From positions 1 through 38,026 of IMG/VR virus record IMGVR_UViG_3300031707_000073: 38,026 bases of DNA. One strand, 5' to 3'. The notes beneath the pieces were generated by a model. That model was given only the letters and a program-made list of their open reading frames with translations, made no database searches and was not told the DNA's origin. This DNA comes from a virus. Of this stretch, positions 2,974 through 32,636 are shown piece by piece (position 1 is the stretch's first letter; every line of letters starts with the position of its first letter). A program made the position numbers and the translations under genes.

Positions 2974-3515
2974 GGGTCAAGGTCAATTCATATGACCGAC
3001 AGTGGGCAGACTCGATGGCACAAATCGCTGTCTCCAAGTATCCCGAGAGAGAGAACGACATCGGGAAGTTCACCGATGAGAAGAGGTCTAGGTTCGATAC
3101 GCAGATGATCGGATTCATCGGAGAGGCCGTCTTCGGGAGGACATTCGAACTGGCGATGAATGAGGAAGGTTCATTCGACAGACTCTATGATTTCATCTGG
3201 GGGAACCATCGAATCGATGTGAAGACCACTGACCGAGGAGGTCGATATTTCCAGATTCCGAGTAGTCAATTTTTAAGGTCGGATGCAGATATATACCTAA
3301 GAGTCGTTCTCTCGAAGGATTGGGAGGAAGCGAATCTCATGGGATGGGCGATGAAGGAAGAGTTCTCCGGGCCTATGGTCGGGAAGTTATCTCCGTTCTA
3401 TTGGGTCGAGGAGAAGTCTCTGAGAACCGTCGAAGACTTGGTCGATCTCCTTCCTGCGAAGATTCGAGTCGCCACTCCTCATGGGAGGAAGTTAGAGATC
3501 GAGGACATGATGTAA
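2970..3515 (+). CDS. PD-(D/E)xK nuclease-like protein
   Basis: 181 aa, GTG start overlapping the previous TGA. The central part reads GFIGEAVFGR (residues about 48-57) and later NHRIDVKTTDRGG (about residues 76-88). This E...D-x-K pattern, with Asp and Lys on adjacent strand positions after a Glu-bearing helix, is the signature of restriction-endonuclease-fold nucleases of the size seen in phage genomes. DNA cleavage or repair is inferred, not shown. It is immediately upstream of, and overlaps by one base (TAATG), an adenine methyltransferase, a pairing that also allows a restriction-modification-like reading. Confidence 0.55.
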   Translation: MRVKVNSYDRQWADSMAQIAVSKYPERENDIGKFTDEKRSRFDTQMIGFIGEAVFGRTFELAMNEEGSFDRLYDFIWGNHRIDVKTTDRGGRYFQIPSSQFLRSDADIYLRVVLSKDWEEANLMGWAMKEEFSGPMVGKLSPFYWVEEKSLRTVEDLVDLLPAKIRVATPHGRKLEIEDMM

Positions 3516-4042
3516 TGACATTTCATACCATGTTGGCCGATCCTCCGTGGAATGAGACTGGAGGAGGAAGAATCAAACGAGGAGCAGACAGACACTACAC
3601 TCTCATGAAGGTCGAGGACATCATCACATTTCTGAAGAAGATCGAGATGGCCGCAGACAGTCATCTCTATCTATGGGTTACGAACAATCATCTTCCCGAG
3701 GGCCTTCAGGTCATGAAGGCCCTCGGGTTCACGTACAAAACGAATCTTGTCTGGGTGAAGGATAGATTCGGTCTAGGTCAATACTTCAGAGGCCAACATG
3801 AACTCTGTCTCTTCGGTACGAGAGGGAGTCTGCCATACAAGAGTTCGATAAGTCCATCCCGTTCATCATGTACGATTCCATCGGTGATCTTCGCCCCGAG
3901 AACCGAACATTCGAGGAAGCCGGAAGAACTGTATGACATCATTGAGAAGACGTCATATCCGGAGTGGGTCGAAGTTTTCGCTCGTTACAAGAGACATGGA
4001 TGGAATGCCATAGGAGACCAAGTGCAGGAGACTCTGGGATGA
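3515..4042 (+). CDS. MT-A70-family adenine methyltransferase
   Basis: 175 aa from ATG 3515, which overlaps the preceding TAA. The catalytic DPPW tetrad is at residues 9-12 and is followed by the family features HYTLMKVEDI, HLYLWVTNN, LVWVKDRFGLGQYFR and a GHE-like QHELCLFGTRG. The C-terminal RKPEELYDIIEKTSYPEWVE helix and final GWNAIGD are also typical. It should transfer a methyl group from S-adenosylmethionine to N6 of adenine, probably in viral DNA. About 175 aa is the normal compact size for phage members. Likely role: protection from host restriction or marking of viral DNA. Confidence 0.9.
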   Translation: MTFHTMLADPPWNETGGGRIKRGADRHYTLMKVEDIITFLKKIEMAADSHLYLWVTNNHLPEGLQVMKALGFTYKTNLVWVKDRFGLGQYFRGQHELCLFGTRGSLPYKSSISPSRSSCTIPSVIFAPRTEHSRKPEELYDIIEKTSYPEWVEVFARYKRHGWNAIGDQVQETLG

Positions 4043-6734: not shown

Positions 6735-6942
6735 AACATTGGCCGCACTCGAACACGAACAATGGATGTCATGGGCGAAGGCAATCGCCCCCTCTCTCGA
6801 TATTGAGGAGGCAGATGCCATAATGCCGAGATGGAATCGACTCTGGGTTCCGTATGACAAACTACCAGAAGAAGAAAAGGAGAAGGACAGAACATGGGCA
6901 AGAAGAGTCCTTCAGATTCTCAACAGGGAGATGGGTCGATGA
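6709..6942 (+). CDS. RyR-domain-like small protein
   Basis: 77 aa from ATG 6709, inside the end of the glycosyltransferase gene, with a strong AAGGAGGAAACGG leader. Pattern: LAALEHEQWMSWAKAI, then RLWVPYDKLPEEEKEKDR and a final helix. The combination EHxxW...PYxxLPxxxKxxDR is that of the RyR domain found in many phage small proteins as well as in ryanodine receptors. In phages its role is unknown; nucleotide-derivative binding has been suggested for relatives. Coupled to DUF5131 by an ATGA overlap. Confidence 0.65.
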   Translation: MLNGQRVLETLAALEHEQWMSWAKAIAPSLDIEEADAIMPRWNRLWVPYDKLPEEEKEKDRTWARRVLQILNREMGR

Positions 6943-7709
6943 CCAAGATCGAGTGGGCCGACTTCACCAGAAATCCTGTCGTCGGATGTTGGGGTCCGGG
7001 AGGGTCGCCTGACAATGCGAAATGGTGTGACTATTGCTTCGCTCGGTCATGGGCAGAGAGACGGATGATCGAGAAGTACTCCGAGGGATTCATCCCGAGG
7101 TTCTTCCCCGAACTTCTTGCCGATGGACAGTACAAGGTCTCGGAATCGTACAGGAGCAAGAACCCGAATCTGAGTCTAGGTCAAGCCGTGTTCTTCATGG
7201 TCGATATGGGAGACCTCTTCGGGGATTGGGTAGATGCCTCGGTGATTGAGAAGGTCATCGATGTCCCGAGGAGATTCCCTCAGCACAAGTTCCTCTTCCT
7301 GACGAAGAATCCGTCGAGGTACAAGGAGTTCAAGTTTTCAGTCAATTCGTGGCTCGGGACGACCATCACAGGATGGAATACCGATGAGACGTGGAAGAGA
7401 CTTCATGCTCTGGTCGAGGAGTCGCCCCCGACAGAAATGAAGTTCGTCTCCTTCGAGCCTCTTCTCGGGAATGTGGCATCTCATCTATTCGTGCCGAGCA
7501 TCGATAGTTACTTCGGCGATCTCGATTGGGTTATCATTGGGAAGATGACCGGACTGGCCGCGAAAACGCAAAAGTACAAGTATGTACTAAGTCAATTCGA
7601 TAGATATGCGAGGAACCTTGCCGAGGAAGCAAGGAAGAGATCGATACCTGTCCTGATGAAGGATAATTCGGGATGGCCGGACCCGCCTCGGGAATGGCCG
7701 AAGACATAG
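6939..7709 (+). CDS. Phage Gp37/Gp68 family protein (DUF5131)
   Basis: 256 aa from ATG 6939 (overlap with previous TGA); an in-frame upstream ATG at 6894 would sit inside the RyR-like gene. The N-terminus MTKIEWADFTRNPVVGCWGP followed by a CDYC motif and AERRM is the hallmark of the Gp37/Gp68 family (kIeWtd.TwNPv.GC...C..C). The three-Cys arrangement resembles an iron-sulfur site and the fold has been compared to radical-SAM proteins, but activity is not established. Later motifs FLTKNP, LGTTI and MKFVSFEPLLG also fit. Found in many phages, often near DNA-modification genes. Confidence 0.85.
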   Translation: MTKIEWADFTRNPVVGCWGPGGSPDNAKWCDYCFARSWAERRMIEKYSEGFIPRFFPELLADGQYKVSESYRSKNPNLSLGQAVFFMVDMGDLFGDWVDASVIEKVIDVPRRFPQHKFLFLTKNPSRYKEFKFSVNSWLGTTITGWNTDETWKRLHALVEESPPTEMKFVSFEPLLGNVASHLFVPSIDSYFGDLDWVIIGKMTGLAAKTQKYKYVLSQFDRYARNLAEEARKRSIPVLMKDNSGWPDPPREWPKT

Positions 7710-9537: not shown

Positions 9538-10092
9538 ATGCCGCCAAAGAGGAAGCCCGTCAGGGTTATCCCCAAACTCGCCCCTCAAAAGGAGAGGCCC
9601 TGGGTGACGGTTGAGGAGAGGCAGGGTCAAGTAGAGAGACTGAGACTTCTAGGACATCAGAGAACGGACATAGGGAGGTTCCTAGAGGTCTCCCCAAAGA
9701 CCGTTGATGCCGATTGGACTGTTATTAGGAAGAGAAGAGTCGCGGCGTGGAGATCGAAGTCGGGGGATGAGGTTCTCGCCGAGATTCAAGGAATGGTAGA
9801 GGAGAACCGGAGGGAGTGGGCCGAACTCAAGGCACAGGCCACGACCATACAGGAGAAGATGGGCTGCCTCTTCGGATTCCTGAAAGCTGTTGATAGACTG
9901 TTGAGGCTCTACCAGATCGGGGGAAAGGTCATGGCTGAAACCGTGAGAGTCGAGGTCTCGGAGGTTTACCGGGCCTCGATCATGGAGGCAATCAGGGATG
10001 TCCCAGAAGAAGTCCAAGAGAAGTTCCTCGACGGTCTCGAACGATACGCCCTTGCTGAAGGCAGTAAGGGAAGTTCGGACTTCACTCGTTGA
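9538..10092 (+). CDS. terS: Terminase small subunit-like protein
   Basis: 184 aa from ATG 9538, SD GGAGG at 9521-9525 and GGGGGG directly before. Residues about 28-62 form a helix-turn-helix (VERLRLLGHQRTDIGRFLEVSPKTV, quoted here as VERLRLLGH, then RTDIGRFLEVSPKTVDADW). The remainder is helical and may mediate oligomerisation. Position directly upstream of, and overlapping, the large terminase gene gives the assignment: it should recognise the viral packaging site. Confidence 0.75.
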   Translation: MPPKRKPVRVIPKLAPQKERPWVTVEERQGQVERLRLLGHQRTDIGRFLEVSPKTVDADWTVIRKRRVAAWRSKSGDEVLAEIQGMVEENRREWAELKAQATTIQEKMGCLFGFLKAVDRLLRLYQIGGKVMAETVRVEVSEVYRASIMEAIRDVPEEVQEKFLDGLERYALAEGSKGSSDFTR

Positions 10093-11446
10093 GAACAAGA
10101 AGATCACTGGGGACTTCATCAAGTTCCGTCTCAAGTATAGGAACAGGCAGACCCCGCCTCACCAGAAGGAAATGATCGAGCATATCGAGGGTCATAAGTT
10201 CTCTCTGATTCTGGAACCGAGGACTCATGGGAAGAGCGAGACCGCGACAATCGATTATCCCATGTGGAGAGTGGCCGCGAATCGGAACATTAGGATTCTG
10301 ATCGTGAGCCAGTCGGATTCACTGGCAAAGGACTTCTTGAGGCCCATCAAGTTCGAGATGCTCAACAACCCCGACATGGCTCAGGACTTCGGTCTAGGTC
10401 CATTCGAGAAGGAGTCAGAGCATGAGATAATCGTTAAGAGGACATTGAACCTCAAGGACTCCACCATCACATCGGTAGGATGGGGAGGAGGAGTCACGGG
10501 CAGGAAGGTCGATCTCATCGTTGCTGACGACCTATTCGATTCAGAGGATGCCATGTCAGAGGTCTTCAGGGAATCGATGAGAAGGTGGTTCCTGAAGGAG
10601 CTGGTGAACTGTCTCGACGAACATGGGGAGAAGAAACTCGTCGTGATCGGGACGACCAAACACTACGACGACCTCTATGCTACCTTGTCGAAGTCGGGGG
10701 ATTTCGCAGTTCTGAAGAGACAGGCGATTCTCGATGAGGAGAAGAAGATCACTTTATGGCCAGAGAAGTTCCCCTTCGAGGCAGTAGATCGGCTGAGAAG
10801 GATGCTCGGCCCCATCTACTTCTCGGCTGAGTACATGAACGACCCGACGCCATTGGAAGGAGAACTTCTCAAGGGGGAGTGGCTTCATTACTGGGATGCA
10901 GATGACCCGACTTTACCGCACCCGCCTGAGGGTTCGGGGATGGAGGTCATGATGGGAGTGGACCCCGCTATCTCGAAGTCCGCGACGGCAGACAACTCGT
11001 CGATATGTGTGGTCGGGAGAGATCGAGAACGAGGTCTCATGTTTGTCCTCAAATCGTGGGCAGGGAAGGTGGATTTCCCCGAACTTTTGAATCTGGTCGG
11101 CCAAGAAGTCAATGTCTGGAAGCCGACAAAGGTCTTCATCGAGGAGAACGCTTACCAAGCTTCTCTGATTCAGATTGCTAAGAGAATCTCATCGATGCCT
11201 GTCGTGGGAATCAGGAACTCGAAGGATAAGGTGTCGAGGATGATTACTCTCTCGCCCCACTTCCAGAATGGCAGGATTCTGATTCACAAGAGCATGAGAC
11301 AGCTCATCCAAGAGTATCTTCAGTTCCCGAAGGGAGCGCACGATGACAGTCTCGATGCTCTCGATCTCGCCGTCAGAGAATGGCTAGAGAGAGGAGGACT
11401 ATCGTATGGAGTCACATCATTCGATTTTGGAAGTCTCATGAGATAG
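9998..11446 (+). CDS. terL: Terminase large subunit
   Basis: 482 aa from ATG 9998 (GGAGG at 9984-9988), overlapping terS by 95 nt; no later start is better. ATPase domain: Walker A-like EPRTHGKSET at about residues 73-82, Walker B VDLIVADD at 171-178. Nuclease domain: MGVDPAIS with Asp 322, EEN near 382-384, and GAHDDSLDAL near 446-455 giving the acidic cluster of the RNase-H-like nuclease. The enzyme pumps DNA into the prohead and cuts concatemers. Length is normal. The R-x-H-G-K-S form of Walker A is common in archaeal and many bacterial tailed viruses. Confidence 0.95.
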   Translation: MSQKKSKRSSSTVSNDTPLLKAVREVRTSLVENKKITGDFIKFRLKYRNRQTPPHQKEMIEHIEGHKFSLILEPRTHGKSETATIDYPMWRVAANRNIRILIVSQSDSLAKDFLRPIKFEMLNNPDMAQDFGLGPFEKESEHEIIVKRTLNLKDSTITSVGWGGGVTGRKVDLIVADDLFDSEDAMSEVFRESMRRWFLKELVNCLDEHGEKKLVVIGTTKHYDDLYATLSKSGDFAVLKRQAILDEEKKITLWPEKFPFEAVDRLRRMLGPIYFSAEYMNDPTPLEGELLKGEWLHYWDADDPTLPHPPEGSGMEVMMGVDPAISKSATADNSSICVVGRDRERGLMFVLKSWAGKVDFPELLNLVGQEVNVWKPTKVFIEENAYQASLIQIAKRISSMPVVGIRNSKDKVSRMITLSPHFQNGRILIHKSMRQLIQEYLQFPKGAHDDSLDALDLAVREWLERGGLSYGVTSFDFGSLMR

Positions 11447-14295: not shown

Positions 14296-14367
14296 TGCGG
14301 CGTAGGCTATCGGTCAAACTGCGGGGTTCATGCCCCCGTGTAGTTGGTTCGACTCCAACCGCCGCAA
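14296..14367 (+). tRNA. tRNA with anticodon CAT (initiator-like Met, or Ile2)
   Basis: 72 nt including the discriminator A at 14367; no encoded CCA. Acceptor stem TGCGGCG/CGCCGCA is 7 perfect bp. The D arm is weak (one C-A mismatch) but its loop has A14, GG (18-19) and A21. Anticodon stem CGGGG/CCCCG with loop TTCATGC puts CAT at 34-36. Variable loop 4 nt; T arm GTTGG-TTCGACT-CCAAC is perfect. The GGG/CCC block at 29-31/39-41 is the mark of initiator tRNA, and the 1-72 pair is weak (U-A). An Ile2 tRNA (lysidine/agmatidine type) cannot be excluded. Confidence 0.85.
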
Positions 14368-14390
14368 CCTTCTCCGACGAATTGAACGAG

Positions 14391-14400
14391 CACTTAAGTA
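14391..14400 (+). promoter_or_regulatory. Late-operon promoter-like box (CTTAAGTA)
   Basis: CACTTAAGTA lies 24 nt beyond the tRNA and about 30 nt before the portal ATG at 14427. At normal archaeal spacing transcription would begin at or just before that ATG. The portal gene has no SD, which fits a leaderless late mRNA. Confidence 0.5.
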
Positions 14401-14426
14401 CAACAGAGCCGCATATCGGTCAACTG

Positions 14427-16652
14427 ATGGGATTAGTCGATAGATTGCGGGGAGCTTTTGTCGGATTGTCGAAGGCCGCACCGAAGGCCGAAGCCCCTCA
14501 AGGGAGGGCGAGACCAGAGACACCGATGGCCGTCGCCGCTATCGAGAAGGATGGATTCCTCGTGCCTCTGAGGAATCCGAAGGAACTCGTCTCACTGGTC
14601 ATGAATGAGTGGATGGTCGGCACGGCCACTGACAAGATCGTTCTCGAAGATACTAGGGAAGGATATGACTTCGTCCTCAAGGAACCCGAGATGGAAGTCA
14701 ACAGACAGGTTCTGGAAAGGGAACTCGATGGAATCAAGGCCCTCTTCGAGAAGCCGAATGAAGGGAAGGATGGCACAGTCGCATACTCGATCAAGGCGAT
14801 TCTCGAAGGGATTGCGTGGTACAAGACAGCCACCGCCGATTGGTTCCTTGAGATGATTCCCGACCCGTTGGGAAGACCGACGGCATTGTGGCCTCTCCCG
14901 TCTGAATACATGAGGGAGAAGGCCGATAGTACACCAGCGCAGTTTTTCTGTAAGGAGTGCATCAAGCCGGGAGGCCCCGACATTCACTACCCCGACTCGA
15001 TCAAGTCATGCCCCAAGTGTGGGCAACCTCTAGTCGAGACTCGATGGATTCAAGTCGACGACCGAGAACAGATAGTCGCTCGGTGGACTGATGGAGAGAT
15101 TCTCTCGAATCTGTCCCGGGCGTATGGTCGAAGGAAGAGAGGAGTCTCGAAGGTTCAACGAGTCTGGTATGTCTGCCAGGTCATCAAGTGGATGGAGAGA
15201 TACCAGTACTCGGCCTATGCAAACAACACGAGCGCAGACAAGATCATTGCTCTTCCGAAGATGTCCCAGGTCATAGTCAACGATATGCTGAGATCGGTTT
15301 CGGAGGAGAAGAAGAAGAACCCCGAGATTCGCAGGAACCTCATGATTGGGACGGAGGAAGCCCCCGTCGTGATCGACCTTCTCGACTCACTTGTCGATCT
15401 CGATGCAAGGAGTCTAGCCGAGTTCTACCGAGAGGCAATCGCCATCAATATGGGAGTCTCTCTGAACATGCTCGGAGTCCAGACACCGGGGAAGCTAGGT
15501 CAGGAGACCGAGACTATCGAGGTCTCGATGGATACAGTGGCCGACGACCAGGCCTCGATGAACGAGTTCTTCAACCTTAAGGTTCTGCCCCTCTTCAAGG
15601 AAATCAAATCGTGGAAGTTCCAGATGAAGTCGCCGAAGAAGGACGACCTCATGAGGAAGTCACAGATCGAGCAGGTCAAGGCCCAAACATTCGTGACTCT
15701 GAGGTCTCAGGGAGTCGATGCCATCATCGATGAGAACTGGGAACTCAGGATTAGGAATCCCGAACCCATTCAACAGAATCCTCAGATACAAGGTCAGGAA
15801 CTCCCCCGTGATGAAAAGCCGATGAATGAAGAGAAACCGAAGGAGGGCCAGAAACAGGCCTCCAAGTCTCTCTTACCGAGGAATGCGCCGCCAGGAGAAG
15901 GTGTGCCGCAGGGCATCTCAATCGCCGAGAAGAAGTTCCTCGACAACCTTCTCTCGATCAGAGAGGGAGCAATCGGGAAGATAGGTCTCGCCAAGAATGC
16001 CAGTGATTACAGAAGAACAGTGGAACTCGCTCTTCTCGATCTTGAAACCGAGATCATCAAGGAAGCGAGACAATTCGAGATCGACTACTATTCGGAGGTT
16101 CTCGACAAGGGAGCGAACAAGGAAGGCTGGGACCCCGCCTTCATGCAAACCGATCTAGATGCCTTGGAGTTCATGAGGGTTGACCCGATGGGGATAGAAT
16201 CTGCTCTGAAGAGATTCGTTGGAGACCAGAGGAAGAATCTCTTCGAAGTAATCGAGACCCAGTACAAGACGCCGGGTGGCTTCACAATAGCCGAACTGAA
16301 GAACGAATTGGCGAAGGTCATCTCGGGAACGAAGTTCGAACTTGAGAGAATCGTCAGGACGGAGATGTCAAGGATAACCAACCTCGCCAGGAGATCGAGA
16401 TGGGAGAAGATCGCCGCGCCTGACGACGTCTTCGAGTTCGTCCCGGCCCACGACCCGAGGACTTGCGAAATATGCAATGCCGTCGCCTTCGGGGGAACCG
16501 TCGAGGTCGATGGAGTCATTCGGAATTTCACTGGGAATCCGTACACATTCGAGGGGATGAGACAGGCAGATGGGGGCAAGGGTTATATGCACCCGATGTG
16601 CAGATGCACTTGGGTTCGCAGACCCGCTTCTTCAATGGGAGCGATGGGATGA
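14427..16652 (+). CDS. Portal protein fused to a MuF-like head morphogenesis domain
   Basis: 741 aa. ATG 14427 is chosen because it is about 30 nt from the CTTAAGTA box and no SD exists for the in-frame TTG at 14382. The first about 500 residues are a portal (FVLKEPE, VYVCQVIKWMERY-like wing/stem helices, AINMGVSLNMLGVQ near the stem). A zinc ribbon is built in at about residues 174-205 (CKEC...CPKC). A Gln/Pro/Lys linker (about residues 450-500) leads to the MuF part: RIVRTEMSRITN, DPRTCEICNA and MHPMCRCTW at the end. The portal is the DNA entry ring; MuF domains sit in the head and are often injected or needed for assembly. Confidence 0.9.
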   Translation: MGLVDRLRGAFVGLSKAAPKAEAPQGRARPETPMAVAAIEKDGFLVPLRNPKELVSLVMNEWMVGTATDKIVLEDTREGYDFVLKEPEMEVNRQVLERELDGIKALFEKPNEGKDGTVAYSIKAILEGIAWYKTATADWFLEMIPDPLGRPTALWPLPSEYMREKADSTPAQFFCKECIKPGGPDIHYPDSIKSCPKCGQPLVETRWIQVDDREQIVARWTDGEILSNLSRAYGRRKRGVSKVQRVWYVCQVIKWMERYQYSAYANNTSADKIIALPKMSQVIVNDMLRSVSEEKKKNPEIRRNLMIGTEEAPVVIDLLDSLVDLDARSLAEFYREAIAINMGVSLNMLGVQTPGKLGQETETIEVSMDTVADDQASMNEFFNLKVLPLFKEIKSWKFQMKSPKKDDLMRKSQIEQVKAQTFVTLRSQGVDAIIDENWELRIRNPEPIQQNPQIQGQELPRDEKPMNEEKPKEGQKQASKSLLPRNAPPGEGVPQGISIAEKKFLDNLLSIREGAIGKIGLAKNASDYRRTVELALLDLETEIIKEARQFEIDYYSEVLDKGANKEGWDPAFMQTDLDALEFMRVDPMGIESALKRFVGDQRKNLFEVIETQYKTPGGFTIAELKNELAKVISGTKFELERIVRTEMSRITNLARRSRWEKIAAPDDVFEFVPAHDPRTCEICNAVAFGGTVEVDGVIRNFTGNPYTFEGMRQADGGKGYMHPMCRCTWVRRPASSMGAMG

Positions 16653-17152: not shown

Positions 17153-18870
17153 TGCCGGAAGACATTCCGTGGCAAGGAGAGAAACCCTGGCCGAATGGCC
17201 GAATCATCGAGTCGTTCATCTCAAGTCCTATGGTTGATCTTCAGAATGAACTTCTGACTGAAGAGACCTTCAAACAGATCATGCCTTGGTTCAACGAGAA
17301 TGGGGTCTATACATGGTATCATTCCGACCTCGTGATCGGAAAGCCGATAGGGTTCCGTTTCAGAGGAGGGAATGCCGAGGCGAAGTTTGGCATCTTCGAT
17401 TCTCAGACTTCAGGTATTCCGTACCATGATGAAGTCTGGAAGATTCTCCAAAGGTATGGTACAAAGGGTTCGAGTTCGATCAGAGGAGTCCCGACCGGGA
17501 AGTCCACTGTCTGCATCGACAATCGATGCTTCAAGAAGATCACGGACATCGGATTGTGGGCAGTGGGATGGGTCGGGCAAGACCCTGCGAATGTGGGAGC
17601 GACTGTCAACAGGGTATCGTTCGCGAAGAGTCTGGGCCCGGAAGTCTGGTCTCAAAAGTACTGGATTGAAAAGGCCCTTGGTAGCGGGGACGCCGAGATA
17701 AGGAACTTGACGAAGGTGATCGTAAAGTTTGGATTAGCAAAGGAGTATTCGGAGGAAAGGAAGATGGAAGAGAAGATCAGACTGAGGATAACTGACAAGG
17801 CAATCGTGGCGATGGCGAAGGGCATGCCCATTACAGAACTGATAGTCAAGTGCCCGAAATGCCGCGAATTTCTAGCCAAACTTGAGGCCGCAGGAATAGA
17901 TACAAATGTGGCCGTGACTGATATCAATGCACAACTACAAGCGGCACTGAGCAAGCCATTCGGTGGCTACAAGGATTTTGCTGCGTGTGTGGCGGCGAAC
18001 AGCGATAAGGAAGACCCGGAGGCCTATTGTGCCACGATCATGCGCGCGATAGAAGGGAAAGCGGCAGGTCAGAGATATGGGGGATTTGAAGCACCCGAAC
18101 CAGCATCGGATTACACAGATCACCAGAAAACTGTTCTCGCGCATGTGTATGCTGGTTGTCGTGAAAATCAGGAAAGTGAAGGTGTAACAGATAAGGAGAA
18201 ATGCGCCAAGATCGCCCATGCGGCAGCGCAGAATGCCAAGTCCATGACAGTTCTATTTCCTTGGTGGGATGGCGATACAATCAAGAAGGACGGACGTCCT
18301 CCTGAGGATTGGTGGGATGCCTGTATAGGCCGCGCACAATCGTTTGCAGATGTTCCAGAGGAATTCTGCGGATGGCTGTGGGCAAGTGGTCCACCGGCCC
18401 AGCAGGAATCGATGGGCAAGGGTCAAGGTCAAGCGACCCCTCCTGGAGGGGGCGTTGACAAGGAAGGGGTTACAATGGCCGACAAGCCAAAGGACACCAC
18501 AGAGAAACAAGCACCCCCTCCGGCTGAGGGAGTGAAGAAGGAGGAGCCGAAGACTGAGGACTACATGGCCCTCATTAAGGCTCAGGAAGTGGAGATTGCA
18601 TCTCTGAAGGCAGAGATGGAGACTCTGAAGACTTCCAAGGGGGACTTCGCCAAAGTCGGCGAAGAGATGAAGAAGGCCCTCGAAGACTGGGGCAAGAAAT
18701 TCTCCGAACTCTCCGAGAGGGTACTCGGGATAGAGGGGAAGATCGGACAACCCGCAGGGTCAGGGAAGAGCAGGGGGCAGTCGCCAGAAGACATCAAGAA
18801 TGCCGCGATTGATTGGTCGAAGATCAACTCGGCGAATGATGTCCTGGGCTTGATCGCCCCGAAGAAGTAG
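17152..18870 (+). CDS. Head maturation protease fused to a Cys-pair insert and a scaffold domain
   Basis: 572 aa, ATG 17152 overlapping the previous TGA. Residues 1-160: prohead-protease-like domain with ISSPMVDLQNE, WYHSD (likely catalytic His), GSSSIRG (likely nucleophile Ser) and ITDIGLWAVGW. Residues about 210-425: an insert with three Cys-pair helical hairpins (C279/C293, C336/C351, C391/C406; 13-14 residues between). Residues about 440-572: acidic, Lys/Glu coiled-coil scaffold ending IAPKK. The protease should cut scaffold and capsid protein during prohead maturation. Base and codon usage of the insert differ from its flanks (fewer TCG/GAG codons), pointing to separate acquisition. Confidence 0.78.
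   Translation: MPEDIPWQGEKPWPNGRIIESFISSPMVDLQNELLTEETFKQIMPWFNENGVYTWYHSDLVIGKPIGFRFRGGNAEAKFGIFDSQTSGIPYHDEVWKILQRYGTKGSSSIRGVPTGKSTVCIDNRCFKKITDIGLWAVGWVGQDPANVGATVNRVSFAKSLGPEVWSQKYWIEKALGSGDAEIRNLTKVIVKFGLAKEYSEERKMEEKIRLRITDKAIVAMAKGMPITELIVKCPKCREFLAKLEAAGIDTNVAVTDINAQLQAALSKPFGGYKDFAACVAANSDKEDPEAYCATIMRAIEGKAAGQRYGGFEAPEPASDYTDHQKTVLAHVYAGCRENQESEGVTDKEKCAKIAHAAAQNAKSMTVLFPWWDGDTIKKDGRPPEDWWDACIGRAQSFADVPEEFCGWLWASGPPAQQESMGKGQGQATPPGGGVDKEGVTMADKPKDTTEKQAPPPAEGVKKEEPKTEDYMALIKAQEVEIASLKAEMETLKTSKGDFAKVGEEMKKALEDWGKKFSELSERVLGIEGKIGQPAGSGKSRGQSPEDIKNAAIDWSKINSANDVLGLIAPKK
18475..18870 (+). CDS. Possible internally initiated scaffolding protein
   Basis: An in-frame ATG at 18475 is preceded by AAGGAAGGGG, a usable SD, at 18460-18469. 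It would give a separate 131-residue scaffold (acidic N-terminus, coiled coil from about ALIKAQEVEIASLKAEM, C-terminal helix) from the 3' end of the protease gene, like the nested scaffold genes in lambda and relatives. The arrangement is seen; its use is inferred. Confidence 0.4.
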   Translation: MADKPKDTTEKQAPPPAEGVKKEEPKTEDYMALIKAQEVEIASLKAEMETLKTSKGDFAKVGEEMKKALEDWGKKFSELSERVLGIEGKIGQPAGSGKSRGQSPEDIKNAAIDWSKINSANDVLGLIAPKK

Positions 18871-18882
18871 GAGGGACCAGAG

Positions 18883-20040
18883 ATGAGCGTCTACGACAAG
18901 ATGACGTTCTTCGATGACTCAGGGATGGGCGTCGAAGACTTCTACAAGGAGAGGGTCCGGCAAGCCTTGGAGATCAAATCCCCGACCCTCGACGGTAGAA
19001 ATGCGGAGCTTCAGTTGGTCGACGAGTTGGCAAAGGCCGCTCTGACGACCGCTGACACAGGGGCCATCAATGCAGTCTATGACATGGCTGTGTTCATGGC
19101 GTATGCCACGAGGACAGACCCTCTCGGAGCTTTGCCCAAGAAGGCATGGCCGAGGCAGGGATTCAGAATCGTGAAGACAGCATCGGTAGCAAGTGGAATC
19201 GGTATTGCCGAGGGCGCGGCTCTCGGGGGAGGCGTCGAAGCGATCTACTTGGAGATCGCACCGAGCCCAAAGGAGATTGAGGTAGTCGCAGACTACACTC
19301 AGAGACTGAAGATTCTGGCAAAACTGGCCGACGGAGTCGCCGTCGATCAGAACAGGAGAGTCGTGGAGAAGGACTTCTGGCGTGCCCTCACGGCAGACCT
19401 GCTCAAAAACTACAACGACCTCCCGGTACTGAACTTCGAGTCTCTGGGAAGAGTCCCGGCGACCACGACTGAGACCACACAACAGACATACACCACTGGC
19501 GATGAGGACATGTACGGGATCGATGTCTCGACCGAGACGTCGTTCATGGGGTCATACCTCGGAGCGACGAGCGGAACAGACAGAGACCTGACGCTACAGC
19601 TCATCAACGACATCAGGGAGACTGTCGAACCATACTGGGAGTCCATGGACAACAAGTGGTATCTCACAGGGTTCGACACATGGAGTCGCTGGTCAGAGAT
19701 CGAGGACGCGAAGATGAGGTACTCGATGGAGGCCTACCAGATGACCGTCGGCGATGGAGTCGTCGTCGGCCCGGGGATTCAGATGGGGGGCAAGATCGCC
19801 ACCTTCGATGGATTCCCGATTATCAGGCATGATCTGGTGGACAAGACCGGAGATACCATCACCCCGATCACGATGTACGACAACGACCATCTCGGGATAT
19901 TCTGGGGACTGCCGGTGAGCTACAACGAGTCCGCAGACATGTTCCAGGTCGGGCACAACATCCGGGGAGTCTGGTACGGCATCGGTGAACTCGTCGTGAC
20001 CAACAGGAAGGTCCACGCAAGGCTGAGAGACCTCAAGTAG
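18883..20040 (+). CDS. Major capsid protein, HK97 fold
   Basis: 385 aa from ATG 18883 with GGAGGGACCAGAG upstream. N-terminal helix and Gly/Met-rich lead-in, then LPKKAWPRQGFRIVKTASVASG, AEGAALGGGVEA and EIAPSPKEIEVVADYTQRLKI (spine strands), a long spine-like helical part, and a P-domain/A-domain tail with PGIQMGGKIATFDGFPII and NHRKVHARLRDL-like end (here TNRKVHARLRDLK). Size and order after protease-scaffold are standard for HK97-type capsids. It forms the icosahedral shell. No separate N-terminal delta domain is visible, consistent with a separate scaffold. Confidence 0.88.
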   Translation: MSVYDKMTFFDDSGMGVEDFYKERVRQALEIKSPTLDGRNAELQLVDELAKAALTTADTGAINAVYDMAVFMAYATRTDPLGALPKKAWPRQGFRIVKTASVASGIGIAEGAALGGGVEAIYLEIAPSPKEIEVVADYTQRLKILAKLADGVAVDQNRRVVEKDFWRALTADLLKNYNDLPVLNFESLGRVPATTTETTQQTYTTGDEDMYGIDVSTETSFMGSYLGATSGTDRDLTLQLINDIRETVEPYWESMDNKWYLTGFDTWSRWSEIEDAKMRYSMEAYQMTVGDGVVVGPGIQMGGKIATFDGFPIIRHDLVDKTGDTITPITMYDNDHLGIFWGLPVSYNESADMFQVGHNIRGVWYGIGELVVTNRKVHARLRDLK

Positions 20041-20638: not shown

Positions 20639-21088
20639 ATGGCAAGAGTCGCGGTCTTCCGAATACGCTCGGACAAGGATGCCCACTTCACAGGAGCCAT
20701 AGCCCAGAATGCATTCGAACAGGAGGACATATTAACTGAGACGGCAGTGAACAGATTCGCCATCCTGGCAGTAGAAATCCTGGCCGACCAAGCCTTAGAT
20801 TGGGAACTGTGGTTCTGGAACAAGGCCACGGCTGAGGATACCGACATGGACTTGGATGCGTACATAGGTCGAGTTGCCATTGCCGTCGCAGATCAGAAAT
20901 ACTACGGCACAAGTGGCACCTACTATGCGAACAAGGAACTGGCCGCCCCGGTCATCTATATGGATGACGATGCGCCTGGAACAGCACCTAAGCTACATGT
21001 CTCCTTACTCAACAGAAACGCGACGAGCAAGAATGCGGGTGCCACCGGGGAAGTAGTGGTCATTGTAACCTGCGAACCAATAGGATGA
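20639..21088 (+). CDS. Head/virion surface protein, copy A (no insertion)
   Basis: 149 aa from ATG 20639 with GAGGAGATGATCGTTC upstream. It is a paralogue of the next gene: FRIRSDKDAHFTGAIAQN versus FRIRSDKDTHFTTAIAAN, LDWELWFWNKA versus LNWELWLASRA, and a matching C-terminus ATGEVVVIVTCEP versus ANGEVVVMLTMEP. A beta-rich virion protein; this is the compact form of the pair and defines the uninterrupted fold. Confidence 0.68.
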   Translation: MARVAVFRIRSDKDAHFTGAIAQNAFEQEDILTETAVNRFAILAVEILADQALDWELWFWNKATAEDTDMDLDAYIGRVAIAVADQKYYGTSGTYYANKELAAPVIYMDDDAPGTAPKLHVSLLNRNATSKNAGATGEVVVIVTCEPIG

Positions 21089-21100
21089 GGAGTCGAGATC

Positions 21101-22156
21101 GTGCGGGAAGCATTTCGCATCAGGTCCGACAAGGACACTCACTTCACCACAGCGATAGCGGCGAACGGCGGCATCGAGGAAGAGGACATAATCTTCCCGA
21201 ACCGAGCCAAGAAGTGCGCCGTGGTGCACGCGGCGATTCAAGCTGATGAGGCGCTGAACTGGGAACTGTGGTTGGCATCAAGAGCCATGAAGCAACTGAC
21301 CGACCTCGACGGAGATAGTGTGCTGGGCAAGATCGCGCTTGACCTGGCGACGAACGGCAAGCGATACGCCGCAGGGGCACAGTATTACTATGATACCGCC
21401 TTGGCCACGCCCTTGCCCTATGTGGAGGAATCGGCGGCCCTCCTAGACCTAGACATGGACACTTTGAGGTCGGGAAAGTTGAAAAACTTCGCTGACGAAA
21501 GTGGCGTGACAGACGGGACCATGACCGATTGCACCACGGTGGAGGGGCGCGTGGGCAATGCTCAATCCTTCAACGGAACGACCAGTTATGTGGCTTGCGG
21601 AACAAACGACAAGTTTCGTATTGATGTAGGTACACTGTCTGCCTGGGTGAAAATTAGTACCACTAATCAAGCATGCATCATATCAAGAATCCGGCCAGAT
21701 TCACCATGGACAGGTTATGTCTTGCACATGAACGACACTGGAAATGTAGGCAAACTGGCTTTCTATGATGGTTCGGTGTCAGTGTATGGAACCAAAGTCA
21801 TCAATGATGGCAAATGGCATCATGTGGCTGTAACCTTCAGTGGCACAATATTGCGGTTCTATGTTGATGGCGCATTGGACATTCAGCGTACAATCACGGG
21901 CGTTAGTTCCTTATCTGGCCAACCATTAGAAGTTGGACGATCTGGAAACGCATCGGACCGCCGATATTTCACGGGCATCATTGATGAGCCGCGTGTCTTC
22001 CCGGTCGCACTTGATGACAACAGCATCGAAGTCTTGGCGCGGAACCAACGATTGTCCTTGATGCACATGGCCTTGGTGAACCGGTCGGTCACGCCTAAGA
22101 CAATCGGCGCGAATGGTGAAGTGGTAGTGATGCTAACAATGGAGCCTTATGGCTAG
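21101..22156 (+). CDS. Head/virion surface protein, copy B, with inserted LamG domain
   Basis: 351 aa, GTG start with GAGGAG upstream. Residues 1-111 and 317-351 align with the neighbouring 149-aa paralogue. Residues about 112-316 are a LamG/concanavalin-like beta-sandwich: NAQSFNGTTSYVACG, GTLSAWVKI, WHHVAVTFSGTILRFYVDG and GIIDEPRVFPVALDD. LamG domains bind glycans or proteins. The insertion therefore places a likely surface-binding module on a loop of a repeated capsid-surface subunit. The insert (about 21434-22048) uses different codons from the flanks, indicating acquisition from elsewhere. Confidence 0.78.
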   Translation: MREAFRIRSDKDTHFTTAIAANGGIEEEDIIFPNRAKKCAVVHAAIQADEALNWELWLASRAMKQLTDLDGDSVLGKIALDLATNGKRYAAGAQYYYDTALATPLPYVEESAALLDLDMDTLRSGKLKNFADESGVTDGTMTDCTTVEGRVGNAQSFNGTTSYVACGTNDKFRIDVGTLSAWVKISTTNQACIISRIRPDSPWTGYVLHMNDTGNVGKLAFYDGSVSVYGTKVINDGKWHHVAVTFSGTILRFYVDGALDIQRTITGVSSLSGQPLEVGRSGNASDRRYFTGIIDEPRVFPVALDDNSIEVLARNQRLSLMHMALVNRSVTPKTIGANGEVVVMLTMEPYG

Positions 22157-28450: not shown

Positions 28451-29407
28451 ATGGCAGTAGTGACGATGAGGGACTTCACGCCCTTCGGATATTCGTTCGA
28501 ATCAACCTGGGGAACGGACCCTGCAACAGCGAGACTTCCTTTCCTCGGAGATATCAAGAAGGCCGTAGTCTCTGGTCCCGATTGGCAGAAGGAGGCCCGG
28601 AGATCGATAGGAAGCGGGATAGACCCGAAGGGATTCGCCAGGAAATGGAAGAAGGTCGGATTCAATCTTGAGATGAATCTCGCCGATGACAACCCGTCGA
28701 ATTCTCTTCTGGGATTGGCATTGGGGTCGGCCCCGAATGGCACAACTGGACTTATCACAAACTACCCCACGACATCATATGGGAATCTGAGATCAATCAC
28801 CATCGAGGGAGGATTCGATTGGCCGGACACCGATGAGTTCTGGCTTCTGACAGGATGCATGATCGAGTCTCTTGATCTGACCCTGGAAGACGGTCTCGCT
28901 AAGGAGGAAATCAAGTTCTCCGTCAAGGATTGTGTGAGATCGAGTTCTCGGGCAGTGGCCGCGCCGACGGAATCAACGACTTCTCTCTTCAATCCAAATG
29001 ATGATGCCACCGTGACATGGAACACGAGTCCCGTACCGACCGTCTATGGGGAGAAGTTGAAGTTCTCGATTCAGAACAAGCTGAAGTCGAAGGCCGTCGT
29101 AGGGCCCACCCCGACTCTGGGATATTGTGAGATTGTCGGGAGAGACGTCTTCCTAGAGGCGACGATACCGAGAGTCGACGACGTCTTCCTCGATAAGTAC
29201 GAAGCAGACCCGAGTAGTGCAGACGCAGAACTCACGAGTATCATCCTCAATCTCGCCAAGAACTCCAACTCAGAGTACATCAACATCACTCTGAGCAATC
29301 CCCAGGTGCTTGGCCCATATGAACTGAACATCGAGGATTCGGATGCCGAGGTCATGGATACTTGGAAGTTCCAGGCTAAGACCTACTCCGTGGATGTCAA
29401 GGCGTGA
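28451..29407 (+). CDS. Major tail (tube) protein
   Basis: 318 aa from ATG 28451. A beta-rich two-domain sequence with LTGCMIESLDLTLEDGLAKE and KFSVKDCVRSS; the SLxLxxxxGxxxxExxF strand pair is typical of tail tube subunits. It lies between a terminator-like gene and the frameshifting chaperones, exactly where tube genes sit in siphoviruses. No separate sheath gene is seen, so a non-contractile tail is likely. Subunits stack as rings to form the tail channel. Confidence 0.68.
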   Translation: MAVVTMRDFTPFGYSFESTWGTDPATARLPFLGDIKKAVVSGPDWQKEARRSIGSGIDPKGFARKWKKVGFNLEMNLADDNPSNSLLGLALGSAPNGTTGLITNYPTTSYGNLRSITIEGGFDWPDTDEFWLLTGCMIESLDLTLEDGLAKEEIKFSVKDCVRSSSRAVAAPTESTTSLFNPNDDATVTWNTSPVPTVYGEKLKFSIQNKLKSKAVVGPTPTLGYCEIVGRDVFLEATIPRVDDVFLDKYEADPSSADAELTSIILNLAKNSNSEYINITLSNPQVLGPYELNIEDSDAEVMDTWKFQAKTYSVDVKA

Positions 29408-29421
29408 GAAGGAGGAGAAGT

Positions 29422-29934
29422 ATGCGAACATCGGTGCTGATCGATGGAAAGGAGACACCCATCGAACTGAGAATGTGGTCTAAGAAGAAGCGAGATGACA
29501 TCGAGAGGGAATACGGGATTCCGGGAGCGACCTATGTGAACATGGTTGTCGGGAGTCTCAGTCAGGGAAGAGGCCCCGCCCTTCAACTTGCGAAGGAACT
29601 CATTGACCGAGAAGTGAAGAGGCAGAACGAAGTGGGGGACGAGTTCAACATGAAGATGATCTCCGTCGTGGCCTTCAAGGTCGTCGAATGGAAGACGGAA
29701 CAGACATCGGGAGAGGACCTCGTCCCGTTCAAGATGGAAGAGATCGAGAACCTTCCTGATGGGGAATATGAGAGGTTGAGGTCGCTAGTCACGAACTTTC
29801 TTCTCGGGAATCAGGATAAGTTCACTATCGTCAAGGTCGGTCTCGCAGAGAAGATCAAGGATGATACCTTGAGGGAGGATGTCCTCAAGTTCGTCGATGA
29901 AGTCGCATCCGGGCAGGTCGAGACAAAAAACTGA
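29422..29934 (+). CDS. Tail assembly chaperone, short form (gpG-like)
   Basis: 170 aa from ATG 29422 behind AGAAGGAGGAGAAGT; an in-frame upstream start at 29404 lacks an SD. Mostly helical with RMWSKKKRDDIEREYGIPG and a C-terminal acidic helix region ending VETKN. It sits between tail tube and tape measure. Its last codons form a frameshift site, so ribosomes can shift to produce a longer G-T product, as in lambda. The short form should coat the tape measure during tail assembly. Confidence 0.75.
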   Translation: MRTSVLIDGKETPIELRMWSKKKRDDIEREYGIPGATYVNMVVGSLSQGRGPALQLAKELIDREVKRQNEVGDEFNMKMISVVAFKVVEWKTEQTSGEDLVPFKMEEIENLPDGEYERLRSLVTNFLLGNQDKFTIVKVGLAEKIKDDTLREDVLKFVDEVASGQVETKN

Positions 29935-29982
29935 GAGCGAGGCTTCGGGGAGAGCCGACAAAATATCCCGAACCGCCTCGCT
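29925..29982 (+). promoter_or_regulatory. Programmed -1 frameshift signal (slippery site plus hairpin)
   Basis: The 0-frame codons AAA-AAC preceded by A make a canonical heptamer A_AAA_AAC (29925-29931), directly followed by the stop TGA. After a 5-nt spacer (TGAGA) a 13-bp stem begins: GCGAGGCTTCGGG (29937-29949) pairs with CCCGAA and GCCTCGC (29967-29981) with one 2-nt bulge and a 17-nt loop. This is the textbook layout for -1 frameshifting. The shifted frame is open to 30149. Confidence 0.88.
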
Positions 29983-30149
29983 TCCTCGATGTAGTCATGG
30001 CCTTGAGGTATGGGGTTCTCCCCGTGAAAGGAGGCCTCGATGACCAGCCCACCGACTTCATCGATGCTCTGAAGACCGGTCTTACAGTCATGTTTGAAGG
30101 AGAGAAGGAAGCAATCGAGAAACAGAGAGAGGCGACAAGGGATGCCTGA
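29931..30149 (+). CDS. Tail assembly chaperone extension (gpT-like), reached by -1 frameshift
   Basis: 72 codons in the -1 frame from CTG 29931 (the base shared with AAC) to TGA 30147-30149; no suitable start of its own is present early in the frame. The product, FLDVVMALRYGVLPVKGG then DDQPTDFIDAL and a basic helix, resembles T-type extensions of tail chaperones. Joined to the 170-aa gene, it gives a 242-aa fusion. The extension should bind the tape measure and tail tube subunits. It ends 8 nt inside the tape measure gene. Confidence 0.82.
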   Translation: MRARLRGEPTKYPEPPRFLDVVMALRYGVLPVKGGLDDQPTDFIDALKTGLTVMFEGEKEAIEKQREATRDA

Positions 30150-30810
30150 TGTACAAGTCAGAGTAGGAGCAGAGTCCGTAGGTGGAGAAGAAGTCTATGA
30201 GGCTCATGCTCATGGTCTCTCCCGAATCTCAGCAGGAGCGAGACAAAGTATTCTTGCATTCGGAGATGCCCGAAAGGAGATGTTCCAATACCGGATGGGG
30301 CTCATGGCCATCAATGCCACTCTCTCGACGGCAAATATGTTGATCGGAATGGCAGGAATCAAGAACGAGGCCTTGAGGAAAGTCATGATCGGACTGAATG
30401 CCGCCGTCGCTATCGGGAACACGCTCGTCCTTCTAAGGGCCGCGTATGAATCGAGGGCTGCTCTCGCAACATGGGGAAGAGCGATTGCGAATGTGGCCGC
30501 GTCGGGATTTCTCGCCCCCGCCCTTCTAGCAGTCATGGCCGCCGCTGTGATTGGAGCATTGGCTCTTCGGTCAACTGCTATGGCTCAGGGAGGTTATGGT
30601 CTAGTCTCAAAACCGACTCTCTTCCTCGCAGGAGAGGCTGGACCAGAGGCATATTCATTCGCTCCCCTGAGAGGAGGAGGTCCGTTCTCCGCCGGAGGAG
30701 GTTCGGTCAATGTCAGACAGATCAATATCACAGTCGTCACGGATGACCCGAGGAAGGTCGGTCAGGCAGTCGCGGAAGAGATGAGGAAACTCAAGGAGGT
30801 TCTGAGATAA
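30142..30810 (+). CDS. Very short tail tape measure protein
   Basis: 222 aa from ATG 30142, overlapping the T frame by 8 nt. Helical N-terminus with repeated Ala-rich stretches, one or two hydrophobic segments (NAAVAIGNTLVLL, LLAVMAAAVIGALAL), then the typical tape-measure ending LFLAGEAGPEAYSFAPLRGGG and a Gly-rich loop, followed by a beta/alpha tail. GEAGPEA is a very common C-terminal mark of tape measures. Tape measures usually span 500-2000 aa, so this one predicts a very short tail (about 30 nm by the 1.5 angstrom per residue rule). Confidence 0.65.
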   Translation: MPDVQVRVGAESVGGEEVYEAHAHGLSRISAGARQSILAFGDARKEMFQYRMGLMAINATLSTANMLIGMAGIKNEALRKVMIGLNAAVAIGNTLVLLRAAYESRAALATWGRAIANVAASGFLAPALLAVMAAAVIGALALRSTAMAQGGYGLVSKPTLFLAGEAGPEAYSFAPLRGGGPFSAGGGSVNVRQINITVVTDDPRKVGQAVAEEMRKLKEVLR

Positions 30811-32636
30811 TGGTCGAGACATATACAGATGTCACAGTCACAGATGATTGTTTCATTGAAGCCACGGACCCGACATATAATTATGGAGTATCGACAAATC
30901 TTGACGTCGCAAAAAATTGGCCCTCAACTTATGATGCGAGAGCCTTGGTCAAGATCGTCGCTCCATCAAAGCCAATCGGAGCAACCGGAAATCCGCGGCC
31001 TAGAATCAGAATCTATTGTAGCACCGCTCCGGCTGCTGGTCTCCTGATACAGGTATTCAAGATATCCAGAACTGCAACTGAAGTTCTCGAAGGTTCGGGG
31101 AATGGGTCGGCTACCGGAGACGGAGCTACATGGAATACATACAACGGTGTCAACAATTGGACAATTGCAGGAGGGGACTACAACGAGTTCCTCGGCCAAG
31201 GAATCGTAACTACAACTGGATGGAATGAATTTTCCCTGGGGCAGATCGGCCTCGATTGGGGGCAGTCTGCATGGGTCATTCTCCGCTGTGCCGATGAAAC
31301 ATCAGGGTCGGATGGGGCCACTTTCAACTCGGCTGAGAACGGCTCGAACAAACCCGTCATTCGCTGGTATTATGACGATGACGTGCCCAAGAAGATTGTC
31401 GATCTCAAGGCAGTCCCGTACCAGACCGACCCAAGGAAAGTGAAACTCACATGGTCTCCAAATGATGATGTGGACTTCGCATCGTATAAGATCAGAAGAA
31501 GTACATCGTCGCCAGTCCTTTATTCGGATACATTGGTGGAAACGATCACTGGTCAATCGACATCGGAATACATAGACAGCACCGACTACACTGGGAACAT
31601 CGTCTATTTCTTCGCAATCTTCATCGAGGATGGCGTGAACACCGGAATCAATGGGTCGAAGTCGAATGAGACATGGATGATTAGGCCGAAGATTTTCACT
31701 CATACCTGGGACGCATCTGGGCCAGTTTTCAGTGAGGCCGAGGTCTGGATAACGCCTGACACTTATGTTAGTACTCCGACACCAGTCACTGATACGCATG
31801 GATATGTTGAGTGGGGGTCGGGGTCGGACCCGGATGTATCAAGTGCATGGGTTCCAATAGATGAGATTGCCCCGGGGAATCACCGAGTCCATCGGTATCC
31901 ATATGTCGGAAGTCACTCAGGTCGAGTCGCCATGAGAAATAGTCTGGGGTTCGAGACCAACAAGAGTAGCCCGGCCACGATCACCGTCACTTCGATAAAT
32001 CCCGTTGCTAAGATCAGGGCGTCGCCGAGATTGATCGGCTTGAATACTGATGTCAACTTCTATGGGGATGAGTCGTATGCCTCCGCAGGAAACAGAAGTC
32101 TCGCCGCGTCGAATGCTTATGAGTGGGATAAGGATTACAGTGGGGCATTCTCGGCAGACTACACCACGACACTTCCTTATCAGGCGATGCAGTGGACAGG
32201 TGCGGGAACGAAAACCGTCGCTCTGAGGGTCAAGGATGAAGATGGACTATACTCATCCGTCGTGACGATGACCGTGATTGTAGTCGCAGAGGTTACGACC
32301 GCTCTCGATAATCTGGTGGATGGATTCGAGGTACTCGATCTCTCCGAAGGAAGACACGGCGCGATTCTCGATGGGATGGAGTCCTACGAGATTACTGCAG
32401 GTTCGGAGAAGCCGAAACAGGTTTCGATTGAGGGATTCGCGTACACAGACACAGATGTAGATGGAGTTCCCGACGATATCGAGACGCTCAGGGATGTGGT
32501 CACAAACAACAAGAAGGTCTCTCTCACAGTCGATGGGACTTCGAGAACAGGAAGGATAATGGGAGATTTGGAGACGCACAACGAAGGAGGATGGGGTAAT
32601 AAGAGATCGTGGAGATGCGCAATCACTCTAGAATGA
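30810..32636 (+). CDS. Multidomain tail protein (DNRLRE, Fn3, PKD)
   Basis: 608 aa, ATG 30810 overlapping the tape measure TAA. Residues about 1-190: DNRLRE/CBM96-like domain (DVTVTDDCFIEATDPTYNYG, then ARALVKI and a Gly-rich strand set). About 195-290: fibronectin-III (VDLKAVPYQTDPRKVKLTWS, DVDFASYKIRRS). About 395-505: PKD domain (PVAKIRASPRLIGLNTDV, YEWDKDYSG and GTKTVALRVKDEDG). The last 100 residues look like the distal-tail/hub-binding part (VSIEGFAYTDTD). It should sit at the tail tip and contact glycans or host surface. Longer than ordinary distal tail proteins because of the added sugar-binding modules. Confidence 0.7.
   Translation: MVETYTDVTVTDDCFIEATDPTYNYGVSTNLDVAKNWPSTYDARALVKIVAPSKPIGATGNPRPRIRIYCSTAPAAGLLIQVFKISRTATEVLEGSGNGSATGDGATWNTYNGVNNWTIAGGDYNEFLGQGIVTTTGWNEFSLGQIGLDWGQSAWVILRCADETSGSDGATFNSAENGSNKPVIRWYYDDDVPKKIVDLKAVPYQTDPRKVKLTWSPNDDVDFASYKIRRSTSSPVLYSDTLVETITGQSTSEYIDSTDYTGNIVYFFAIFIEDGVNTGINGSKSNETWMIRPKIFTHTWDASGPVFSEAEVWITPDTYVSTPTPVTDTHGYVEWGSGSDPDVSSAWVPIDEIAPGNHRVHRYPYVGSHSGRVAMRNSLGFETNKSSPATITVTSINPVAKIRASPRLIGLNTDVNFYGDESYASAGNRSLAASNAYEWDKDYSGAFSADYTTTLPYQAMQWTGAGTKTVALRVKDEDGLYSSVVTMTVIVVAEVTTALDNLVDGFEVLDLSEGRHGAILDGMESYEITAGSEKPKQVSIEGFAYTDTDVDGVPDDIETLRDVVTNNKKVSLTVDGTSRTGRIMGDLETHNEGGWGNKRSWRCAITLE

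Follow-up and report, generated by a model that had tools for sequence, protein, structure and literature searches.

A probable -1 frameshift site joining the tail chaperone frames of an uncultured, probably archaeal tailed virus, with comparable slippery sites in its relatives

A -1 frameshift very probably joins the two tail assembly chaperone frames of the virus record analysed here (38,026 bp, referred to as the window) into a single GT fusion protein. This G-like/T-like reading, put forward in an earlier note on this DNA, is supported by the gene order, by the coding signal of the -1 frame and by the conservation of slippery-plus-stop sites in relatives. The slippery heptamer A_AAA_AAC lies at 29925-29931 on the plus strand, in the canonical phase at the end of a 0-frame ORF, and this is the single occurrence of AAAAAAC on the analysed strand (38 kb). 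The ORF ends ACA AAA AAC TGA, with the stop (TGA, 29932-29934, +) abutting the heptamer, which confirms that a 170-codon gene ends in this way at 29925-29934. The ORF (29422-29934, +) encodes a putative G-like tail assembly chaperone of 170 aa, based on its position between the tube and tape measure genes and on its similarity to the equivalent ORF of the nearest relative. Its preferred start is the ATG at 29422, with a Shine-Dalgarno-like AAGGAGGAG 5' of it (29409-29418, +), as read from the sequence. The T-like -1 extension (29931-30149, +) runs from CTG at 29931 to TGA at 30147-30149; its 72 open codons and the predicted fusion of 242 aa agree with the earlier values. It does end inside the tape-measure-like gene, since the T stop and the ATG of the next ORF (30142) overlap by 8 nt.

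In the proposed mechanism, most ribosomes would translate ACA AAA AAC, terminate at the TGA and yield the G protein of 170 aa. A minority, delayed by a hairpin with AAA-AAC in the P and A sites, would move back by one base, from AAA-AAC to AAA-AAA, and continue past the stop to produce the GT fusion of 242 aa. If G and GT work as they do in lambda, G would form a coat on the tape measure protein, the scarcer GT would bring in tail tube subunits through its T domain, and the G:GT ratio would set tail assembly. The signal, the two coding frames, their conservation and the gene order are present in the sequence itself, and we infer the slippage, how often it happens and what G and GT do. The slippery site of lambda, G_GGA_AAG, is unlike that of the window, and sequence similarity of the window G and T to lambda is not to be expected.

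Given the G gene's own codons, a slippery heptamer would fall on its last two codons with a probability of 0.0046. AAA makes up only 18% of the Lys codons in this genome, and the slippery spelling is therefore not the default. A full match, defined as an ORF of at least 150 codons with an A/T-type heptamer directly 5' of the stop and at least 70 open codons in the -1 frame, was found in 0 of 60 shuffled windows. The chance that an off-frame stretch stays open over 69 codons is 7%. Between the stop and the next gene, the T frame has a coding score of 0.166 per codon, compared to window averages of 0.204 for true genes and -0.246 for off-frame stretches, and none of the off-frame controls scored for coding equals the T-frame value. 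Judged by the codon usage of the window and by the substitution pattern in a sister family of viruses (below), the -1 frame is a real coding extension under selection.

The T frame might instead be one of two separate genes, with T made by internal initiation or by reinitiation past the TGA and no frameshift; indeed, the annotation of HHTV-2 shows the chaperone at this place as two separate genes next to each other. Scanning the T frame for ATG, GTG or TTG, we found none ahead of 29997, and the codon at 29997 has no ribosome-binding-like sequence and leaves 50 aa; thus, the T extension could be expressed whole only via the preceding ORF. Moreover, the slippery heptamers of the relatives lie exactly at the frame junction, and a separate gene has no need of one. 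We consider separate genes very unlikely, and favour the -1 frameshift.

The best local fold 3' of the heptamer is a predicted stimulatory hairpin (29935-29983, +) of 15 pairs, made up of 9 bp (29935-29943 with 29975-29983) and 6 bp (29944-29949 with 29967-29972). It has a 17-nt loop and a CC bulge at 29973-29974, and starts 3-4 nt past the heptamer. The 2-nt bulge described previously was retained, but the stem of 13 bp beginning after 5 nt gave way to this fold. Compared to shuffled sequences, the hairpin has an MFE z of -2.99; only 0.6% of 55-nt windows of the sequence fold as well, as do 8 of 1000 recodings that preserve the T protein. A possible pseudoknot of 7 pairs, in which 29950-29956 of the hairpin loop would pair with 30014-30020, was set aside, since 7 pairs are, by our estimate, expected by chance.

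The G protein retrieved no relatives when used as a query, and the capsid protein was therefore used to find them; an alignment of the capsid with those of vir519, HCTV-1 and HVTV-1 yielded 46 IMG/VR loci. Counted over the loci in which the tail region is present and a slippery junction was found, the common layout consists of a tube gene (~300-340 aa), a short ORF, a slippery heptamer, a -1 extension and a tape-measure-like gene. The nearest relative, L011, has a tube with 34% identity to that of the window, and carries A_AAA_AAC at 16608; its 0 frame reaches a stop four codons further on, and its -1 extension is 72 codons long. The identity between the window and L011 is 18% for the G ORF, 31% for the T extension and 33% for the next gene. 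Another locus, L017, has A_AAA_AAA followed by TAA.

Further evidence comes from the sister family, which comprises L042, L013, L025 and L022 as well as L058-L060, the last three identified via a tube alignment. All seven have Asn/Asp/Ser-Pro-Asn-stop, spelled NNC CCA AAY stop, and thus C_CCA_AAY followed by the stop. The preceding C and the CCA codon are both free to vary synonymously, yet both are kept: from each contig's codon usage, the probability that all seven use CCA is 3.2e-4 and the probability that all of the preceding codons end in C is 7.7e-5. The joint probability is ~2.5e-8 under naive independence, a figure that is an overstatement due to shared ancestry. The contigs differ strongly in codon usage, with GC contents of 30-50%, and the CCCAAA columns are invariant in the alignment. 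The T frame of the family is coding, with mismatches of 0.455, 0.299 and 0.579 at codon positions 1, 2 and 3. The hairpin is kept partly, not consistently, in the family (5 consensus pairs, one of them with a compensatory change), and is less conserved in relatives than the heptamer. The comparison of sites across relatives, suggested in the earlier note, thus bore out the slippery site (the heptamer in L011 and C_CCA_AAY in 7/7 sisters), but the hairpin to a lesser extent. Applied to the loci found, the contrary pattern that the note had named, in which the overlapping frames are kept and both heptamer and stem are lost, did not refute the frameshift reading. At the level of sequence, the slippery-plus-stop sites of the relatives support selection on the frameshift site.

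These comparisons bear on two further explanations of the junction. RNA polymerase slippage on A runs is a known route to such fusions, and the run of six As at the site might allow it, with mRNAs carrying an extra or missing A giving rise to the fusion. Six As are short for transcriptional slippage, the seven sister genomes have CCCAAAY with no long homopolymer, and a hairpin 3' of the site suits a ribosome; we think it highly improbable that the fusion arises during transcription. The second explanation, that a sequencing or assembly error or gene decay has removed one base from a normal single gene, draws on the facts that errors are commonest in homopolymers and that no second contig over the site was found: an exact 21-mer search for near-identical IMG/VR contigs over the site returned none, and L002, L003, L005 and L006, which are short, cut-off contigs of the same virus, apparently do not contain the G/T region. 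However, the frame is broken at the corresponding position in independent contigs too, where slippery sites and stops are likewise in frame, and this recurrence appears largely to refute an error or a decayed gene, to which we give hardly any credence. The preferred reading is still that ribosomes shift at A_AAA_AAC.

Other loci were more varied. In another family of relatives, the sites are G/T-rich: G_GGT_TTT in L015 (7363), T_TTT_TTG in L029 (8444) and T_TTT_TTA in L035 (7170). The T domain of this family is conserved (31-42% identity). Several loci with other tail layouts were scanned and no slippery site was found in them. Similarly, no slippery heptamer was found near the end of the gene in the chaperone position of vir519 (L007), a Methanofastidiosa virus with a related capsid; this gene (18327-18611) encodes 94 aa, and the T extension may be absent in vir519.

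Neither G nor T of the window matched any entry in the family libraries, and profile-profile comparison did not link them significantly to the sister family or to haloviruses. The structure model of the window G is poor (pLDDT 43), and the fold search from it was therefore dropped. The model of the sister-family G is better (pLDDT 83.6) and could be aligned to YqbN (3klu; Z 5.0, 2.7 A) and to HK97 gp13 (2ob9; Z 3.7). The three best re-aligned solved structures are a PICI-like-element protein, YqbN and the HK97 tail assembly chaperone, and the viral models near the top are the tail chaperones of HHTV-2 and of Bacillus and Enterococcus phages, with E-values of 0.03-0.1. Foldseek alone gave no significant match of the sister G model in the PDB. 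The modelled sister G thus seems to resemble known tail chaperones, with modest Z scores of 3.7-5.0 that are support for kinship, not proof of it, and the resemblance of HK97 gp13 and Bacillus YqbN is to the sister-family protein, not to the window protein. Matches to leucine-rich-repeat proteins in the PDB, found in a sequence search with the G alignment, involve one 30-residue stretch (LPDG..ERL..L) and were rejected as a chance resemblance to the repeat consensus.

The virus probably has an archaeal host in our judgement. The major capsid protein, compared to ~50,700 phage records, had 9 matches, all to archaeal viruses, with 24-28% identity; it matches phrog_24667 and is related to a Druskaviridae-like group of archaeal tailed viruses. 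The terminase matches TIGR01630 (psiM2_ORF9, named for a methanogen virus) and passes the cut-off, although its best matches in the phage records are bacterial phages. A related capsid gene occurs on a contig binned as Pacearchaeota and also in one other genome of the same phylum (sample n=279), although bins can hold stray viral contigs. The previous description of an archaeal virus is thus likely from the capsid matches and the bins of relatives, but not proven.

The frameshift is an ordinary, known mechanism, of which the window is an additional example from outside the halophile isolates. The earlier suggestion of novelty was overstated, since passages in reviews list -1 frameshifting of g and t in four haloarchaeal viruses, HCTV-1, HCTV-2, HCTV-5 and HVTV-1 (Pietila 2013; Sencilo 2013, cited in PMC5009743 and PMC8211752), of which HCTV-2 uses A_AAA_AAC, identical to the heptamer of the window (PMC5009743, PMC8211752). 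Like the shift predicted in the window, the -1 shift of the Haloarcula viruses falls in a tail chaperone gene flanked by the tube and tape measure genes, and HCTV-1, HCTV-5 and HVTV-1 also have a related major capsid protein, at only ~25% identity. They differ in that the window has a stop immediately after the heptamer, in that its G and T show no recognisable sequence relationship to theirs, and in that it does not come from a halophile isolate. The records of HCTV-1 and HVTV-1 have joined chaperone genes at the same place. In HHTV-2 (L010, NC_021340), G ends GAG GAA AAC TGA (31050-31080) and the -1 frame is open across the stop into the second gene, which suggests that G_GAA_AAC may be a shift site missed by the annotation; HHTV-2 and the window share the identical stretch AAAACTGAGAGCG. 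Lambda G/GT is like the window in its gene order and in the combination of a short 0-frame product with a -1 extension (PMC5009743). Frameshifting in Archaea had been shown experimentally for one cellular gene only, according to a 2021 review (PMC8211752). In the Saccharolobus alpha-L-fucosidase, a -1 frameshift at an A-rich slippery heptamer read by archaeal ribosomes has been proven by experiment (PMC8211752). Its heptamer is A-rich like that of the window, but it is a cellular enzyme gene, not a viral fixed-ratio device.

We lean towards the wider view that tail assembly depends on fixed-ratio -1 frameshifting throughout a broad, uncultured, non-halophilic lineage of archaeal tailed viruses, to which the window virus, L011 and the seven genomes of the C_CCA_AAY family would belong. 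If this is true, slippery sites of several kinds, among them C_CCA_AAY directly 5' of a stop, would be read by ribosomes of Archaea other than the Haloarchaea. Viral cases of archaeal frameshifting have so far rested on a few halophile isolates; the locus and its relatives provide a comparative set from outside these isolates, in which the evidence of selection is at the codon level and the slippery sites are of several types, and this set could be used directly for reporter tests with archaeal ribosomes.

The structural genes of the window are arranged, from left to right, as terminase (9998-11446), fused portal-MuF (14382-16652), major capsid protein (18883-20040), tail tube (28451-29407) and the G-like ORF. 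The tail tube gene (28451-29407, +, 318 aa), directly 5' of the G-like ORF, was identified from Pfam PF18906 Phage_tube_2 (E 3.2e-12) and phrog_290 minor tail protein (E 9.4e-10). On the other side of the G/T locus lies a small tape-measure-like gene (30142-30810, +, 222 aa), assigned from its position, its similarity to the next gene of L011 and a weak match (E 0.0076) to the L042 tape measure, which was itself called by PHROGs. In the family libraries, the 222-aa gene had only a sub-threshold match, to DUF1656. The order tube, G, T, tape measure is common to the annotated joined chaperones of HCTV-1/HVTV-1 and to the IMG/VR relatives found with the capsid. The tape-measure-like product is 175 aa in L011. 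By the usual rule of ~0.15 nm per residue, a tape measure of 222 aa would correspond to a very short tail, near 33 nm. The end of this gene carries GLVSKPTLFLAGEAGPEA, which we take to resemble the ends of many tape measure proteins.

Elsewhere in the window, two adjacent paralogues (20639-21088 and 21101-22156) share 43% identity, and the conserved ends of the second are separated by an inserted laminin-G/lectin-like domain (PF13385, E 1.5e-24), an arrangement as might be seen in a head-decoration protein that had gained a binding domain. A tRNA-Met gene (anticodon CAT, 14296-14369) lies just 5' of the portal gene, and the early region includes genes for an MT-A70 adenine methyltransferase (3494-4039) and a DUF5131 protein of the phage Gp37 type (6936-7709).
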